A stretch of DNA of 64,000 nt from Tractidigestivibacter montrealensis (lineage in GTDB: Bacteria > Actinomycetota > Coriobacteriia > Coriobacteriales > Atopobiaceae), in assembly GCF_024741235.1 (NCBI RefSeq), contig NZ_JANSKA010000001.1, forward strand, positions 124,001 through 188,000, in the 5' to 3' direction. The notes under the pieces were generated by a model that made no database searches, had not been told where the DNA came from, and saw only the letters and a list, made by a program, of their open reading frames with translations. Both the position numbers and the translations under genes were made by a program. Positions 2,295 to 60,201 of this stretch are shown here, in pieces; position 1 is the first letter of the stretch, and the number at the start of each line of letters is the position of its first letter.

Positions 2295-3790
2295 AGGTCG
2301 CGGCGGGTGAGGATCTCCTGCGGGATCAGGCGGCAGCCCTCCACAACGCTGCGCGCATAGGCGGCAGCCTCCTCGGTAAGGCCCTCGCACATGAGCGACA
2401 TGTCCGGCATGCCAAGGTTCACCTGGCAGGTCTGCTCGTTGTCAGCAGGATCCGGGTAGCGGTCCTGAGCCTTGTCAATCATGAGCTGGTAGGCGGGGGT
2501 GAAGGGCGCAAAGGGGTAGCGCTCGCCCAAAACGTCACGCAGACGCACCATGATGTCGATGCCCGCTCGGTCGATGTCGCCCCAGTAGAGGACCTCAACG
2601 GAGTCCGCGCCCAGCGTGTCAAGAAGCAGCGCCAGGCGGTTATGCTCGAGGATGGGCGTGCCCCCGCCCAGCACCACGGCATGGATTCGCTCGCCCAGGA
2701 TGGTTGTGCGACCCTCCTCGTACATGAGGTCGTGCACGTCAAGCCAGGGATCGAGGTTCTCGGTCACCAACACGCGCATGTGCTTCCTACGACGCGGCGC
2801 GTGGTAGAGAAGGTCAGGCTTGGGCATAGGTCGGTGGCGGATGACGTCCTCCATGCCCATCGCGCGCAGGAGCTTGTGGCCGTCGGACCCGTACTCAAAG
2901 AACTTCTCGTCGCCACCCATCTGGTAGGCAAGCTGACGACGCGTAATGTCACCGGGAAGCGCACCGTTTACCAGGGCGTCATTGATAGCCGTGAGCTGGC
3001 GCTCGAAGAGCGTGTACGCGCCGGGGTGGCTGAGCAGCCAACCGTTCATCCAGAAGCGCTGGTCAAGCTCGAGGATCTTGGCACGGACCTCGGTCTCGGC
3101 GGGGCCGCCGCGGCGAACGTAGGGAACCTCGGAGAGCTGCGTGGGATGAGAGGGACTGCCCTTCCCCACCCGACGCAGACGCCCGCGCTGGGTGCGCGGG
3201 GCCGAGGAGCGACCGGGCTTCTCCGCGCGCGCGGGGGGTGCGGGCTGCGCGGGGGCTTCGGGCTGCGCGGGCGATTCGGGCTGCGCGGGGGATGCGGGCT
3301 GTGCGGGCGATTCGGGCTGTGCGGGCGATTCGGGCTCTGGGGCATTGGCGGGCGCGGGAGCTGCCGCGGCAGCAGGCTCATTGGCTGTGGCGGCATCGTC
3401 CTCCGTGGGTGCCGCCTCGGGCGGCTCGGCCACCGCGGGGGCGGGCTCGCTCTCTGCCGACATACCCGTGGCGTCCGCGAGGCCCTCGTTCTTCTCGCCA
3501 GCGTCCTCTACCTGCGGCGGAACACGCAGGGTGTAGACGCCCTCCTGCCCCTCCACGGGGTCGAGCGCCTCGGCGAGAATGGCCGCGGTCAGCGCCACCT
3601 GAGCGCCCTTGCCATACTTGCCCACGATCCGCTGGATGTCCTCGTCGGTCACCACGTCGCCCCGCACGCGCACTAGAGAGCTCGCCACGGACGCGGCCTT
3701 GTTCTTCTGCGAGGGCTCCAGAACTTGGCAGAGAGCCTCCCTCAGATAATCAAGGTTCATACGTTCTGCGTCGGTAAGTTTTCGCGCCAT
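2291..3790 (-). CDS. Stand-alone JetD-like (DUF2220) Toprim protein with Pro/Ala linker
   Basis: A 499-residue protein with three parts. Residues 1-93 form a charged helical N-terminal domain; residues about 94-205 are a low-complexity Ala/Pro/Glu linker including a PAQPESP-type repeat (about 145-175); residues about 215-499 resemble the C-terminal DUF2220 domain of Wadjet JetD. The Toprim-like signature is visible: VLVTENLDPWLDV (Glu334), LYWGDIDRAGIDIMVRLR (Asp395 and Asp397), and a C-terminal LTEEAAAYARSVVEGCRLIPQEIL like the JetD tail. JetD is the topoisomerase VI-like nuclease subunit of the JetABCD plasmid-defence condensin. No JetA, JetB or JetC gene lies on either side, so a Wadjet role cannot be assumed; it may be a free nuclease. 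Start ATG at 3790 follows GGAACC-type weak ribosome site. Confidence 0.7.
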   Translation of the reverse strand: MARKLTDAERMNLDYLREALCQVLEPSQKNKAASVASSLVRVRGDVVTDEDIQRIVGKYGKGAQVALTAAILAEALDPVEGQEGVYTLRVPPQVEDAGEKNEGLADATGMSAESEPAPAVAEPPEAAPTEDDAATANEPAAAAAPAPANAPEPESPAQPESPAQPASPAQPESPAQPEAPAQPAPPARAEKPGRSSAPRTQRGRLRRVGKGSPSHPTQLSEVPYVRRGGPAETEVRAKILELDQRFWMNGWLLSHPGAYTLFERQLTAINDALVNGALPGDITRRQLAYQMGGDEKFFEYGSDGHKLLRAMGMEDVIRHRPMPKPDLLYHAPRRRKHMRVLVTENLDPWLDVHDLMYEEGRTTILGERIHAVVLGGGTPILEHNRLALLLDTLGADSVEVLYWGDIDRAGIDIMVRLRDVLGERYPFAPFTPAYQLMIDKAQDRYPDPADNEQTCQVNLGMPDMSLMCEGLTEEAAAYARSVVEGCRLIPQEILTRRDL

Positions 3791-10122: not shown

Positions 10123-10315
10123 CGCGTTCGCAGCTCAACCGAACCAGCCTACAGCCGGAGACCCGTCCGTCACCCTCTCCGACGAGTTTAAAAAGCCTTT
10201 CACGTTTCCGCAGTTGGCTCGAAACCGTATTAAGAAATGGAGCTAGACTCCACCGGGGAGGGCACGGAGACGCCGTGATTTCAGGTCCGTGCCAGGTCTC
10301 CAGCAACGCAACTTC

Positions 10316-10442
10316 CGGTTGGCGGCAGTTTTGGTTCAGTTCCTTATACGTCACTGCTGATGGAACAATTCGCTGACCTGCAGTTTATCAAACATCGAAC
10401 CGCCGGATACTTTAGGGTACCGAGAAAAACTGCCACCAACCG
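10316..10442. repeat. 127-bp inverted-end element, copy A
   Basis: Begins CGGTTGGCGGCAGTTTT (10316-10332) and ends with AAAACTGCCACCAACCG (10426-10442), imperfect 17-bp terminal inverted repeats with one mismatch. Same length as the copies at 52431 and 53809; interior CTGCAGGTCAGCGAATTG (read on the minus strand) matches CCGCAGGTCAGCGATTTG of copy B. No coding capacity. Sits just downstream of the LacI gene. Confidence 0.8.
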
Positions 10443-10486
10443 TCAATTCGTGCCAGAAGGCTGCGCGCCACCGTCGCTCGACGCCC

Positions 10487-11653: not shown

Positions 11654-11710
11654 CCCCGCGATGAGACAAAGGGACTGTCCCTTTGTCTCATCCTTTGTCT
11701 CATCGCGGGG
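11654..11710. repeat. Dispersed 31-bp palindrome, copy 2
   Basis: The ATGAGACAAAGGGAC-T-GTCCCTTTGTCTCAT palindrome at 11661-11691, followed by an extra CTTTGTCTCAT half arm and enclosed by CCCCGCG (11654-11660) and CGCGGGG (11704-11710), which extends the potential hairpin. It lies between divergent LacI and TPR-like genes, so here it is not at a gene end. Confidence 0.9.
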
Positions 11711-23425: not shown

Positions 23426-23475
23426 TGCACCAAGGGGAGGTCGCGCGCAAAGAGCCCGCAGTGCGAGCAAGCAAG

Positions 23476-23553
23476 TGGGGCTGCCGGGCATATTTCCGAC
23501 AGAATGGACACTCCAAGGTGTGCAATCTGTCCGAAAACGGCCCGGCAGCCCCA
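23476..23553. repeat. 78-bp cruciform-capable inverted repeat
   Basis: TGGGGCTGCCGGGC (23476-23489) and GCCCGGCAGCCCCA (23540-23553) are exact complements. Inside, TTCCGACAG and CTGTCCGAA pair with one mismatch, so most of the element can fold. It lies in the gap between two convergent genes and could end the leftward GH2 transcript, or be a decayed insertion. Confidence 0.75.
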
Positions 23554-23578
23554 GCAACAAGATGGCCTCGCCCGCAAA

Positions 23579-34249: not shown

Positions 34250-34326
34250 CGCGGCTGGCGTTTGCAGTCTCGGAGGTCTAGCTCTGGCTTCGCAGGCCTC
34301 TCGCCGGCCCAATCTCAATGACTTTG
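34250..34326. other. Short gap before the 250-bp element
   Basis: The stretch from the TMEM175 stop to 34326 has no gene or clear site. With 34577-34639 it flanks the inverted-end element at 34327-34576. Confidence 0.5.
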
Positions 34327-34576
34327 TGCACAAAAACGCTCTATCGGACGGCTTTCTCGTAGTCGCTGCATAAAAATGCTCTATCGGACGGCTGCCATCT
34401 GCGTTTGTCATCAAATGTCAAATTACTGTTCCATAATTTTGCATATTTCAAATATAATATGCACTCTAGTCAATACTTAATTAGAACCTTGATGTCAGCG
34501 AGCTCGAAGCGCCGTCCGATAGGGCGTTTTCATGCAGCAACATAGAAATCTCCGTTCGATAGCCCGATTTTGTGCA
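34327..34576. repeat. 250-bp MITE-like element with 66-bp inverted ends
   Basis: Two 26-bp units with core CTATCGGACGGC (34327-34352 and 34367-34392, 40 bp apart) are mirrored by two inverted units (34511-34536 and 34551-34576, also 40 bp apart). Read inwards, the left 66 bp and the complement of the right 66 bp align over their whole length with about a dozen differences, both starting TGCACAAAA and ending CTATCGGACGGC. The core (about 34403-34490) is strikingly AT-rich against the GC-rich surroundings. No transposase frame. This is the form of a non-autonomous transposable element. Confidence 0.75.
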
Positions 34577-34639
34577 GTAAGGCAGCCCCGAGTCATCCCC
34601 CAGAGCCAGTCAAAGCGAGATGGGGATGCGTCCCCTACC

Positions 34640-37808: not shown

Positions 37809-38133
37809 CCCGCCCCCCCTCTGTTGCCTGGCTCGATTCTGCCCTATGGAGATTCTGATTTGCAGACTTGAGTTTGGATCGCCAATGAGCCGGGAGCCAC
37901 CCCCTGCAGCACGTGATAATCGACTCCGCAGGTTCCAAGCGTTGGAACCCGCCCAGAATGGTTTCTACTCTGGGTTCTGAGTTCCAGGTCGGAGGCTGAG
38001 CCGTGAAACACGCTGGGCTTCCGTTCCGAGGATGCGTTAGCACAGCCGGAGGGTTTTGTACGGCCGGGGGGCACAGCAACCCGAGATTGGCATACTTTTA
38101 CGGTTGGTGGCAGTTCACGCCAACACGGCACTC
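37809..38133. other. Intergenic region with small palindromes and a solo element end
   Basis: No gene. GGTTCCAA-GCG-TTGGAACC (37931-37949) is a short dyad, and CCAGAA...TTCTGAG repeats follow it. At 38101-38116 lies CGGTTGGTGGCAGTTC, preceded by TGGCATACTTTTA; this matches the left end and outer flank of the 127-bp element family, but no right end is present, so it is a decayed or solo terminus. Confidence 0.55.
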
Positions 38134-52348: not shown

Positions 52349-52430
52349 GGACGAGGTCATCATAGGGCTCACGGAAGATGTGTCTCCTGCGTCATTCTTG
52401 TCAGATGCTCCCTCTGTTGGCACGTTTTTA

Positions 52431-52557
52431 CGGTTGGTGGCAGTTTTACGGAGATCCCCTGAGTATCGGGCGGCTCGTGTTCCGGGAAACCGCAGGTCAG
52501 CGATTTGCGGCTTCACCGGTCTCACATAAAGGGTTTTCCGAAAACTGCCACGAACCG
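52431..52557. repeat. 127-bp inverted-end element, copy B
   Basis: Starts CGGTTGGTGGCAGTTTT (52431-52447) and ends AAAACTGCCACGAACCG (52541-52557), one mismatch between ends. Similarity with the inverted copy C continues beyond the ends: TGGCACGTTTTTA on the left and TCATTTC on the right. Interior CCGCAGGTCAGCGATTTGCG and CTCACATAA are shared with copy C. Confidence 0.85.
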
Positions 52558-52598
52558 TCATTTCTCGCAACAGGTTCTTGATTAATTGTCTGCAGCAC

Positions 52599-53564
52599 TC
52601 AAAAAAGGATGCGGTGCGGGTCGTTGAAAAATTCATAGAGGTCACGTCGGGCACCGAGTTGCACATCCGTAAGGCCCCGCTCCCGAAGGCCAAACCGCTT
52701 GTTGAGCATCCACATAAAGTTCTGGAAGTACTCGAAAGAGCTGAGCTGCCCTGGCGTAGCCGACATCGTTTTTACACCCGAGACCTCCAGGATGTTTCTG
52801 CGCTTCTGCGTGTGATCCAGTCGGTAGCGCCCCGTGTGATACTGTTCGCTATCGTATTCCACATCGCCACGCGCACTGGGGATATACACGTCGCAGTAGA
52901 AACTATCGGTACCCGCGAACTCCCACAGGTGCTCGGGAACCTTGACCTCTTGGTTCGCGACAATGTGACGAATCCCCCTCCCACCTTCCGACTTGGGAAG
53001 GACAAGGGCACTGCAGAGCATGATTTCTCTAGGTGACGCCGTGCGCTCAACGACATAACGCAGCGCCCGGCGCGCCTGCTTTGCGCCATAGGCTCCTGGG
53101 GCTTGATCAAGAAAACCGGCGATCGACTCAGGTGTTGTGAGCGCGTCACGCTGACCTGTGTACCCGTGGCCAGAGTCGCCTATAGAAAAGAGGCCGCACA
53201 GGTAGTCGCCGATTTCGACGACCTCTCGCAAAGACCTTCCTGCTGCCATCTGTAGAAATGTGAACTCGGGAGAACTCACGAGATTGGAACCAGAGAGTTC
53301 ATAGAACGATCCTGGTGGTAGCACACCGCTCCAGCGGTGTGCTACCAGGCATCGTTGATTTCGCACCGAATCTGAATCGCAAACCAAAACGTGTAGCGGT
53401 CGTTTCTCGGAATAGTCAAAGGACAGTGCATCAAGGCGCACGTCACGCATGTTGGCACTTGAAAACGAGAGACTCTGGCAGGGGCTCACAGATGGGACCG
53501 CCTCGTTAGAGATCTTGGTCAACCAATATCTCAAAGCCGATTCATGACACAGAACTACACTCAT
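52599..53564 (-). CDS. AbiEi/DUF559-like protein with endonuclease fold, boxed by inverted elements
   Basis: A 321-residue protein read from ATG 53564 (an ATG at 53576 is also possible). The N-terminal part (VVLCHESALRYWL, later HRWSGVLPPGSFYELSG) resembles AbiEi-type antitoxin/regulators. The C-terminal part has a Vsr/DUF559-like nuclease pattern: FYCDVYIPSARGDVEYDSEQYH, then LDHTQKRRNILEVSGV, i.e. D, EYD-x-E-x-H, and D-x-x-xRR. In gut actinobacteria such proteins are numerous and scattered. It lies alone between 127-bp repeats at 52431-52557 and 53809-53935 in opposite orientation. An exact 15-bp-arm hairpin lies inside the gene. Confidence 0.65.
   Translation of the reverse strand: MSVVLCHESALRYWLTKISNEAVPSVSPCQSLSFSSANMRDVRLDALSFDYSEKRPLHVLVCDSDSVRNQRCLVAHRWSGVLPPGSFYELSGSNLVSSPEFTFLQMAAGRSLREVVEIGDYLCGLFSIGDSGHGYTGQRDALTTPESIAGFLDQAPGAYGAKQARRALRYVVERTASPREIMLCSALVLPKSEGGRGIRHIVANQEVKVPEHLWEFAGTDSFYCDVYIPSARGDVEYDSEQYHTGRYRLDHTQKRRNILEVSGVKTMSATPGQLSSFEYFQNFMWMLNKRFGLRERGLTDVQLGARRDLYEFFNDPHRILF
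53316..53347. repeat. Perfect 15-bp-arm hairpin within the DUF559-like gene
   Basis: TGGTAGCACACCGCT (53316-53330), CC, AGCGGTGTGCTACCA (53333-53347): an exact inverted repeat with a 2-nt centre inside coding sequence, at the region encoding LVAHRWSGVL. Confidence 0.85.
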
Positions 53565-53808
53565 CTCAATCCCCATCCACGTTTGTTGGCTGAGAATAGC
53601 GCGCGGAGGACAGGCACGTTCTTGAGCCGCTTGCACGAAACTGACACCGCAGCTAGAGGTAGAGAAATGTCGTGATGAACGTATGAACGCGCAGGTAGAC
53701 CTACGCATAAGGCGGAATAGGAATATCGACAGAAAACCGTCAGCTTCTAAGGCAGCACCCACGAAGGCCCTTGCGCTTAGGTTCTTGAGCAGTCATTGCA
53801 AGAAATGA
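53565..53808. other. Gap between the DUF559-like gene and copy C
   Basis: No gene or clear site. The 5' flank of the leftward gene and its promoter must lie here. GC content is visibly lower than in neighbouring housekeeping genes. Confidence 0.4.
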
Positions 53809-53935
53809 CGGTTGGTGGCAGTAATCGGAAAACACCTTATGTGAGACAGCCAGAGTCGCAAATCGTTGACCTGCGGTTCCGCGGAACCAGAGCCGTCCAA
53901 TACTCGGGGACACCCCGAAAAACTGCCACCAACCG
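53809..53935. repeat. 127-bp inverted-end element, copy C (inverted relative to B)
   Basis: Starts CGGTTGGTGGCAGT (53809-53822) and ends AAAACTGCCACCAACCG (53919-53935). Its reverse complement matches copy B along its length (CCGCAGGTCAACGATTTGCG, CTCACATAA) at roughly three bases in four. Outer flanks GAAATGA (left) and TAAAAACGTGCCA (right) are the complements of B's flanks. Confidence 0.85.
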
Positions 53936-53975
53936 TAAAAACGTGCCATCAAGCGCGCACAACGCACCTGGAGCG

Positions 53976-58705: not shown

Positions 58706-59500
58706 ATGGCGCTTCGCATCTCCGTGGGCCAGTACTACGCTGCGGACTCCCCCATCCACCGGCTTGACCCCCGCACCAAGGCGGCCTGCGCCCTGGCGCT
58801 CATGGTCGCCACGTTCTTCGTTCACTCGCCGCTTGGGCTGGCAGCGCTTGCGGCGTGCGTGCTCGCGCTGCTTCTTGCGGCGCGCGTCCCGGCAGGCGAG
58901 GTCCTTTCATCGGTGCGTGGCGTGCTCTGGGTGCTTCTCTTCCTTGCGGTCTTCAACCTGCTGCTCATTCGCGATGGCAGCGTGCTTCTCGCCGCGGGAC
59001 CCATCACGATAACCACGGGCGGCACGTGGTCGGCGGTGCTCTATCCGGTGCGCGTGTTTGCCGCCATCGTGGTGGGCGCACTGCTCCTGCTCACCACCAC
59101 GCCCACCGAGCTGGGCGACGCCTTTGACGCCGCCTGCTCGCCGCTCACCAGGCTGGGCCTTCCCGGCCACGAGCTTGCCATGGTCTTCTCGCTCATGCTG
59201 CGCTTCATCCCCACGCTGGCAAACGACGCCTCGGCAATCATGGATGCGCAGGTCGCACGCGGTGGCGAGGTGGCACGCGGCAGCCTGGGCCGGCGCCTTC
59301 GCGCGGTTGGTTCGGTGCTTGTGGCGCTCATGGCAAGCTCGATGCACCATGCCGACGACCTCGCGCGCGCCCTCGACGCGCGCTGCTACGAGAGCGGCGG
59401 CACGCGTTCGCACTGGCATCCGCTGCACTTTGGCGCGCGCGATGTCACGGCATTTGCGGCCACGGCAGCCATGGTCTCCCTCCTCGTCGCGCTAGGATGA
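58706..59500 (+). CDS. ecfT: ECF transporter transmembrane (T) component
   Basis: A 264-residue protein with about five or six membrane segments and the EcfT features SPIHRLDPRTKAACAL at the start and the coupling helices with Ala-Arg-Gly motifs (IMDAQVARGGEV, ARALDARCYESGGTR). It completes the ribU-ecfAA-ecfT energy-coupling module; it may serve other S components too. Its TGA stop (59498-59500) lies inside the 31-bp palindrome. Confidence 0.94.
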   Translation: MALRISVGQYYAADSPIHRLDPRTKAACALALMVATFFVHSPLGLAALAACVLALLLAARVPAGEVLSSVRGVLWVLLFLAVFNLLLIRDGSVLLAAGPITITTGGTWSAVLYPVRVFAAIVVGALLLLTTTPTELGDAFDAACSPLTRLGLPGHELAMVFSLMLRFIPTLANDASAIMDAQVARGGEVARGSLGRRLRAVGSVLVALMASSMHHADDLARALDARCYESGGTRSHWHPLHFGARDVTAFAATAAMVSLLVALG

Positions 59501-59527
59501 GACAAAGGGACAGTCCCTTTGTCTCAT
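59497..59527. repeat. Dispersed 31-bp palindrome, copy 3 (shared stop codons)
   Basis: ATGAGACAAAGGGAC-A-GTCCCTTTGTCTCAT, perfect over both 15-bp arms. The left ATGA supplies the stop of ecfT and the right TCAT supplies, on the other strand, the stop of the flavodoxin-like gene (59524-59526). So a single symmetric element ends both convergent genes. Confidence 0.95.
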
Positions 59528-60160: not shown

Positions 60161-60201
60161 CTCGGATGAGACAAAGGGACTGTCCCTTTGTCTCATCCGA
60201 G
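60161..60201. repeat. Dispersed 31-bp palindrome, copy 4
   Basis: The 31-bp palindrome at 60166-60196, extended by CTCGG (60161-60165) and CCGAG (60197-60201). It lies in the gap between the divergent flavodoxin-like and yfbR genes, 19 bp from one start and 28 bp from the other, so it cannot be acting as a gene-end terminator for either. Confidence 0.93.

Follow-up and report, generated by a model that had tools for sequence, protein, structure and literature searches.

Described RAYT/REPIN systems combine a DNA-processing gene with its own palindromes: the gene lies beside them at fixed places, and non-autonomous copies are dispersed and can persist without it (PMC8049555, PMC8266576). We analyzed a 64,000-nucleotide stretch of the Tractidigestivibacter montrealensis genome (contig NZ_JANSKA010000001.1, positions 124,001 to 188,000; termed the window), in which a gene for a predicted Vsr/DUF559-type nuclease is boxed by two inverted copies of a palindromic element. 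As in RAYT/REPIN, genes of this family adjoin their cognate palindromes (68/108 genes vs. 14/203 controls, and on both sides in the case of the window gene), gene-free copies are dispersed, copies survive where the cognate gene was not found, and the element ends are gene-specific. Unlike RAYT/REPIN, the protein is of the predicted Vsr/DUF559 type and not a HUH Y1 transposase, the elements (97–185 bp, 10th–90th percentile) are of fixed length and conserved in their interior, and the same genomes also contain a true RAYT that has its own, separate REP.

The predicted catalytic domain also shows weak profile and fold similarity to Vsr-like (EDxHD) homing endonucleases, e.g., I-Bth0305I. Unlike these, the gene is associated with no intron or intein, its partner is a population of palindromes, and its product has an additional N-terminal part of ~200 residues. 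The elements resemble MITEs in being short, dispersed, non-coding and TIR-bounded, but differ from them in showing no obvious target duplication at the inspected flanks, in a constant length despite high divergence, and in being tied to one protein family. No earlier description of a link between such nucleases and palindromes was found in the open-access literature, nor was any link of the DUF559 and REase_MTES_1575 Pfam families to palindromic elements.

The boxed gene and its palindromes

The features of the locus, with related sites elsewhere in the window, are as follows.

52430–52558, plus strand: element B, 129 bp, with 18-bp TIRs ACGGTTGGTGGCAGTTTT / ACGGTTCGTGGCAGTTTT
52599–53564, minus strand: gene of the predicted Vsr/DUF559-type nuclease family, 321 aa (325 aa from an alternative ATG at 53576)
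52692–52904, minus strand: predicted C-terminal nuclease core, residues ~221–291 of the 321-aa form, bearing the invariant pair D225/E236 and the nearly invariant pair H243/R255
53808–53936, minus strand: element C, 129 bp, an inverted copy of B, 81% identical
10315–10443, minus strand: element A, 129 bp, a solo copy at a distance of 42 kb and without an adjoining family gene
38100–38117, plus strand: lone TIR end, an 18-bp TIR match

Elements B and C each measure 129 bp from TIR to TIR, the 18-bp TIR being ACGGTTGGTGGCAGTTTT. Their similarity, and an imperfect inverted repeat, extend beyond the TIRs (B, ~52415–52570; C, ~53796–53951), such that inverted arms of 156 nt at 52415–52570 and 53796–53951 are 83% complementary and separated by 1225 nt. 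An earlier note on this DNA had described two equal-length inverted copies that match into their flanks; the orientation, equal length and flank similarity were borne out, but the copies are 129 rather than 127 bp long. With up to three mismatches, the TIR has seven matches in the window compared to 0.02 expected from shuffles. The window genome holds ~9–11 copies, each clearly bounded copy being 129 bp, and this length is constant even though identity among the seven best copies is only 61–81%. At a place comparable to the lone TIR end (about 37.7–38.1 kb), a congeneric genome (G003) has a full 129-bp element, and the lone TIR is apparently the remnant of a deleted one. The interior gave no Rfam match at E ≤ 1, and RNAalifold on 33 copies returned the TIR stem only, with a covariation term of 0.03 and no covarying interior helices, and a structured RNA was rejected on these grounds. 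A coding fragment was likewise rejected, as one frame is open by eye in a small number of copies but interrupted by stops in others. The window also contains an 18-bp tandem repeat in five copies (3214–3339), which would encode a 6-residue repeat if in a coding frame.

Between B and C lies one credible gene, on the minus strand, and no transposase, as the earlier note had observed. The gene ends at 52599, and element B begins 41 bp past the stop; the neighbors are a DUF711 gene and murB, and no partner methylase or toxin adjoins the window gene. An alignment of 87 homologues shows four invariant residues (S177, E180, D225 and E236) and two nearly invariant ones (H243 and R255). At E ≤ 0.1, PF04480 (DUF559) was matched by 35 of the 87 members and PF18741 (REase_MTES_1575) by 44, with at least one member (L033) exceeding the gathering score. 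These family matches support the “DUF559-like” label given by the earlier note, although the window protein itself falls below detection in Pfam and has no fitting NCBIfam or PADLOC family. Its other label, AbiEi, was not supported: no AbiEi model was found in Pfam, NCBIfam and PADLOC scans of the 87 members, and with DUF711 and murB as neighbors there is no adjacent AbiEii nucleotidyltransferase. PF01797 (HUH Y1 transposase) matched none of the 87.

The best PDB chains by profile, all weak (E 0.012–0.3), were 3hrl, 3r3p and PvuRts1I, with one common segment aligned; the segment bearing D225 and E236 aligns with the catalytic segments of 3hrl and PvuRts1I. Of these, 3hrl is an endonuclease-like protein and 3r3p the catalytic domain of I-Bth0305I. 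An AlphaFold2 model built with 87 diverse homologues reached a pLDDT of 93.6 and a pTM of 0.92 and was the model used; an alignment of 10 sequences had given a pLDDT of 37.7. By Foldseek, viral DUF559, Vsr and homing proteins were matched at E of about 1e-4, while no PDB entry was matched at E ≤ 0.001 and whole-fold similarities were weak. The N-terminal ~200 residues had no confident match. The window protein is predicted to possess a Vsr/DUF559-type nuclease domain, of the PD-(D/E)XK superfamily, with an invariant Asp and Glu.

Association of gene family and element across Coriobacteriia

Homologues were collected from eight congeneric genomes, other Atopobiaceae and a class-wide sample of 119 genomes. 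Family members occur in 51 of the 119 (49/53 in the same order vs. 2/66 outside it, by table count) and reach 17 per genome. A TIR-bounded element was scored as present at a threshold of ≥13, with all shuffled sequences (0/108) below 11, and the set of 203 control genes had been cleared of loci picked for holding elements. By this measure the downstream association given above has a Fisher p of about 2e-26, and within the window's own clade it extends to 20 of 22 genes. The elements lie at a median of 38 bp past the stop and have a median length of 132 bp. Most family members have the element downstream only, while some clades have it on both sides. The link between gene and repeat, which the earlier note had suspected and thought possibly undescribed, is real, general and statistically strong.

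TIR sequence varies by gene subfamily, and several element interiors have common short motifs (GAGTA; TACCTGC or its complement). The window genome itself carries four family genes, each with its own downstream TIR element:

C4: ACGG TIR element, downstream of a family gene
C5: AAAATCGACATTGACGG TIR element, downstream of a family gene
C10: CCGTTGCATAAAAAGCCTCTATCGG TIR element, downstream of a family gene
C10: AAAAGTGAACACG TIR element, downstream of a weak, distant family member

A dispersed element at about 34319–34584 of the window, with doubled TIRs GCACAAAAACGCTCTATCGGACGG / GCATAAAAATGCTCTATCGGACGG, matches the one that accompanies the family gene at G000:C10:101725 and by this match is assigned to the third of these pairs (CCGTTGCATAAAAAGCCTCTATCGG type). 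In the downstream elements of loci L088, L090 and L091, the TIR recurs inside in both orientations, giving three or four binding-site-like copies per element. TIR similarity rose with protein identity, from 8.2/20 below 35% through 13.2 at 70–90% to 18.2 above 90%, protein pairs under ~35% identity showing no more than background similarity; restricted to 12 non-redundant core members, the correlation was not significant (p 0.14). Such a trend could be expected if specificity turns over fast, and common descent would give the same trend. Because element type tracks gene subfamily, the gene is more likely to be a partner of the repeat than its cargo.

Dispersed copies and the locus in relatives

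Counted on both strands with up to two mismatches, ACGG TIRs numbered 16 in the window genome (G000), 2 in G002, 27 in G003, 21 in G004, 13 in G005 and 68 in G006, with none in G001 and G007; a reversed-pattern control gave 0–2 per genome. G006, the richest genome, contains ~34 ACGG elements. All 33 aligned copies are 129 bp long, with 90+ bp of conserved interior between the TIRs. Many ACGG elements form doublets in (−,+) order, spaced by about 91 or 102 bp. These were noted at L116, L117, L120, L127 and L133 in G006, L014 in the window genome, L151 in G004 and L152 in G005; the two spacings differ by close to one helical turn. In a single such case, without exact junctions, a G006 doublet is an extra segment, the same flanks lying 19–57 bp apart in six relatives.

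The gap between murB and the DUF711 gene was compared in the eight congeneric genomes (G000–G007). A gene of the window type boxed by ACGG elements is present in G000, G003 and G004; one ACGG element without a gene in G006; another member of the broad family, boxed by another palindrome (AACCTCACACGTGATRTTTCT...), in G001, G005 and G007; and a AACCTCACACGTGATRTTTCT-type palindrome alone in G002. This distribution does not track murB similarity. The earlier note had expected that its idea would fail if relatives kept the gene without repeats, or repeats without cargo and empty sites; neither pattern was cleanly seen, as both close orthologues (G003 and G004) keep the gene with both repeats and one relative (G006) has a solo repeat. 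G005 and G006 both hold many ACGG elements and no close cognate gene was found in them. Gene loss is the likely reason and, in G006, is suggested because a solo element remains at the murB/DUF711 locus.

The boxing copies are identical over 129/129 positions inside G003 and likewise inside G004, compared to 77% identity between the two genomes and 81% between the copies of the window genome; the left copy of G004 is of the window's right-copy type (98%). The simplest reading would be repeated conversion between inverted copies, with a tract of identity that stops at, or near, the boundaries of the element. Judged from these identities, the boxing pair has been homogenized in two of three genomes, i.e., by concerted evolution, and the repeat-mediated recombination that the earlier note had offered as one option is visible in this form in relatives.

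A second family, of 140 bp and found beside the C5 paralogue, comprises 39 distinct copies in seven genomes with several TIR types; interiors are mostly 80–93% identical to the query copy. The two arms of an element co-vary, with 892 of 1092 matches compared to 799 for shuffled arms, and none of 5000 shuffles reached the observed value. TIRs of the GACATTGACGG type are present in G000, G004 and G007, where the resident gene bears it, and in G005; G003 has a single partial match, and G001, G002 and G006 lack the type.

No target duplication was obvious by eye at the inspected flanks, which lack exact insertion junctions. The L247 site was rejected as a case of insertion, since G002 lacks the element together with ~110 bp and several relatives keep both, as expected of a deletion. 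An insert in G005 (L260) has no family gene; its contents are a further palindrome and a gene of another, apparently regulatory, kind. A AGAATAGCTCC...TTAAGAAA...GGAGCTATTCT palindrome family fills gaps that hold ACGG elements in relatives (L159 in G002, L161 and L260 in G005, L147 in G004). It is as if such intergenic gaps were hotspots for several element families. A further ~75-bp palindrome of another type (GGGGCTGCCGGGC...GCCCGGCAGCCCC) lies between two genes at about 23470–23560 of the window.

A proposed nuclease-based counterpart of RAYT/REPIN and its alternatives

On balance we lean toward regarding gene and palindromes as one RAYT/REPIN-like system (a REPtron) in which a Vsr/DUF559-type endonuclease would take the place of the HUH Y1 transposase. 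In the proposed mechanism, the Vsr-like protein would recognize the TIRs, and perhaps also the conserved interior, of its cognate element, bind there and cut or nick the DNA; repair of the break from another copy could then make elements spread, flip and homogenize. The nuclease gene would mostly stay at fixed loci, and element populations would outlive its loss. The homogenized boxing pair and the co-variation of arms fit such a cut-and-repair model. Several findings count against a RAYT/REPIN-like system: about a third of family genes have no strong downstream element by score, and ACGG elements are numerous in G005 and G006, where no close cognate gene was found. To these may be added that the one clear case of an extra segment (the G006 doublet) lacks exact junctions while the L247 site proved to be a deletion, that the protein–TIR correlation could stem from common descent and is not significant among the 12 core members, and that whole-fold PDB similarity is weak.

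Inverted repeats of such length can make hairpins or act as operators. The palindromes may accordingly be cis-regulatory (an operator, bidirectional terminator or mRNA-stability element), with the protein binding TIRs to control its own expression and the dispersed copies representing a regulon or by-products of recombination. The tight position of the element, a median of 38 bp past the stop, speaks for this reading; we nonetheless consider it unlikely, given that distant solo copies retain the 90+ bp interior and exact length, that the interior has no covarying structure, that the 34 copies of G006 are accompanied by no close cognate gene, and that upstream copies occur in only part of the family.

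Slightly less likely again is a homing-type selfish cassette, whose nuclease would cut an empty or unrelated allele of the spacer so that gene and element are copied into the same site of relatives, the palindromes supplying homology or acting as ends. Consistent with homing are the weak resemblance to I-Bth0305I and to homing proteins of viruses, and a murB/DUF711 spacer that holds alternative family cassettes by species without following murB similarity. Against this, the majority of element copies lie at many scattered sites without a gene, and the C5-locus paralogue has a fixed place in six relatives, as vertical descent predicts.

A passive cargo boxed by miniature transposon ends and moved by a transposase encoded elsewhere, close to the composite unit put forward in the earlier note, would account for dispersed, TIR-bounded elements without genes of their own. 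The sole transposase type compared was Y1_Tnp. Ten of 11 Y1_Tnp loci in these genomes hold REPs of the GAGACAAAGGGACWGTCCCTTTGTCTC type, five of them on both gene sides, and the ACGG element is found at none of the 11; Y1_Tnp is missing from G006, the genome with the most ACGG elements. The Y1_Tnp RAYT was therefore rejected as mobilizer of ACGG elements. The same REP type is present in the window:

2256–2282, 11663–11689, 59499–59525 and 60168–60194: GAGACAAAGGGACWGTCCCTTTGTCTC palindromes, the REP type flanking genuine Y1_Tnp genes of the genus

Because this REP also flanks the genuine Y1_Tnp (RAYT) genes of the genus, a classical REPtron coexists with the nuclease-linked system in these genomes. 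A composite unit of two repeats and a trans-acting transposase is further disfavored by the one-sided element at most family genes, by the absence of obvious target duplication at inspected flanks, and by the association of many unrelated TIR families with a single protein family, and we judge it improbable. Still more improbable is a defense or addiction nuclease with palindromes as recognition or protection sites, to which weak matches of 9/87 members to the PADLOC methyl-directed REase model, member numbers reaching 17 in a genome and a rapid turnover of TIRs lend something, but the window protein matches no PADLOC family, its gene adjoins no partner methylase or toxin, and elements are retained in genomes in which no close cognate gene was found.

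Returning to the RAYT/REPIN-like system, we suggest tentatively, as a proposition a little short of evenly balanced, that Coriobacteriia possess a second class of REP system that evolved independently and is convergent with RAYT/REPIN. Its families of Vsr/DUF559-like endonucleases, as many as ~17 to a genome, would each maintain and diversify their own palindromes. If true, this would provide the first partner and a testable function for a large nuclease-type family of gut Coriobacteriia, and would mean that domesticated nuclease-plus-palindrome systems evolved more than once. It would also offer many natural protein/TIR pairs for studying DNA recognition by such proteins, and would explain a considerable share of the palindromic DNA interspersed through these genomes.
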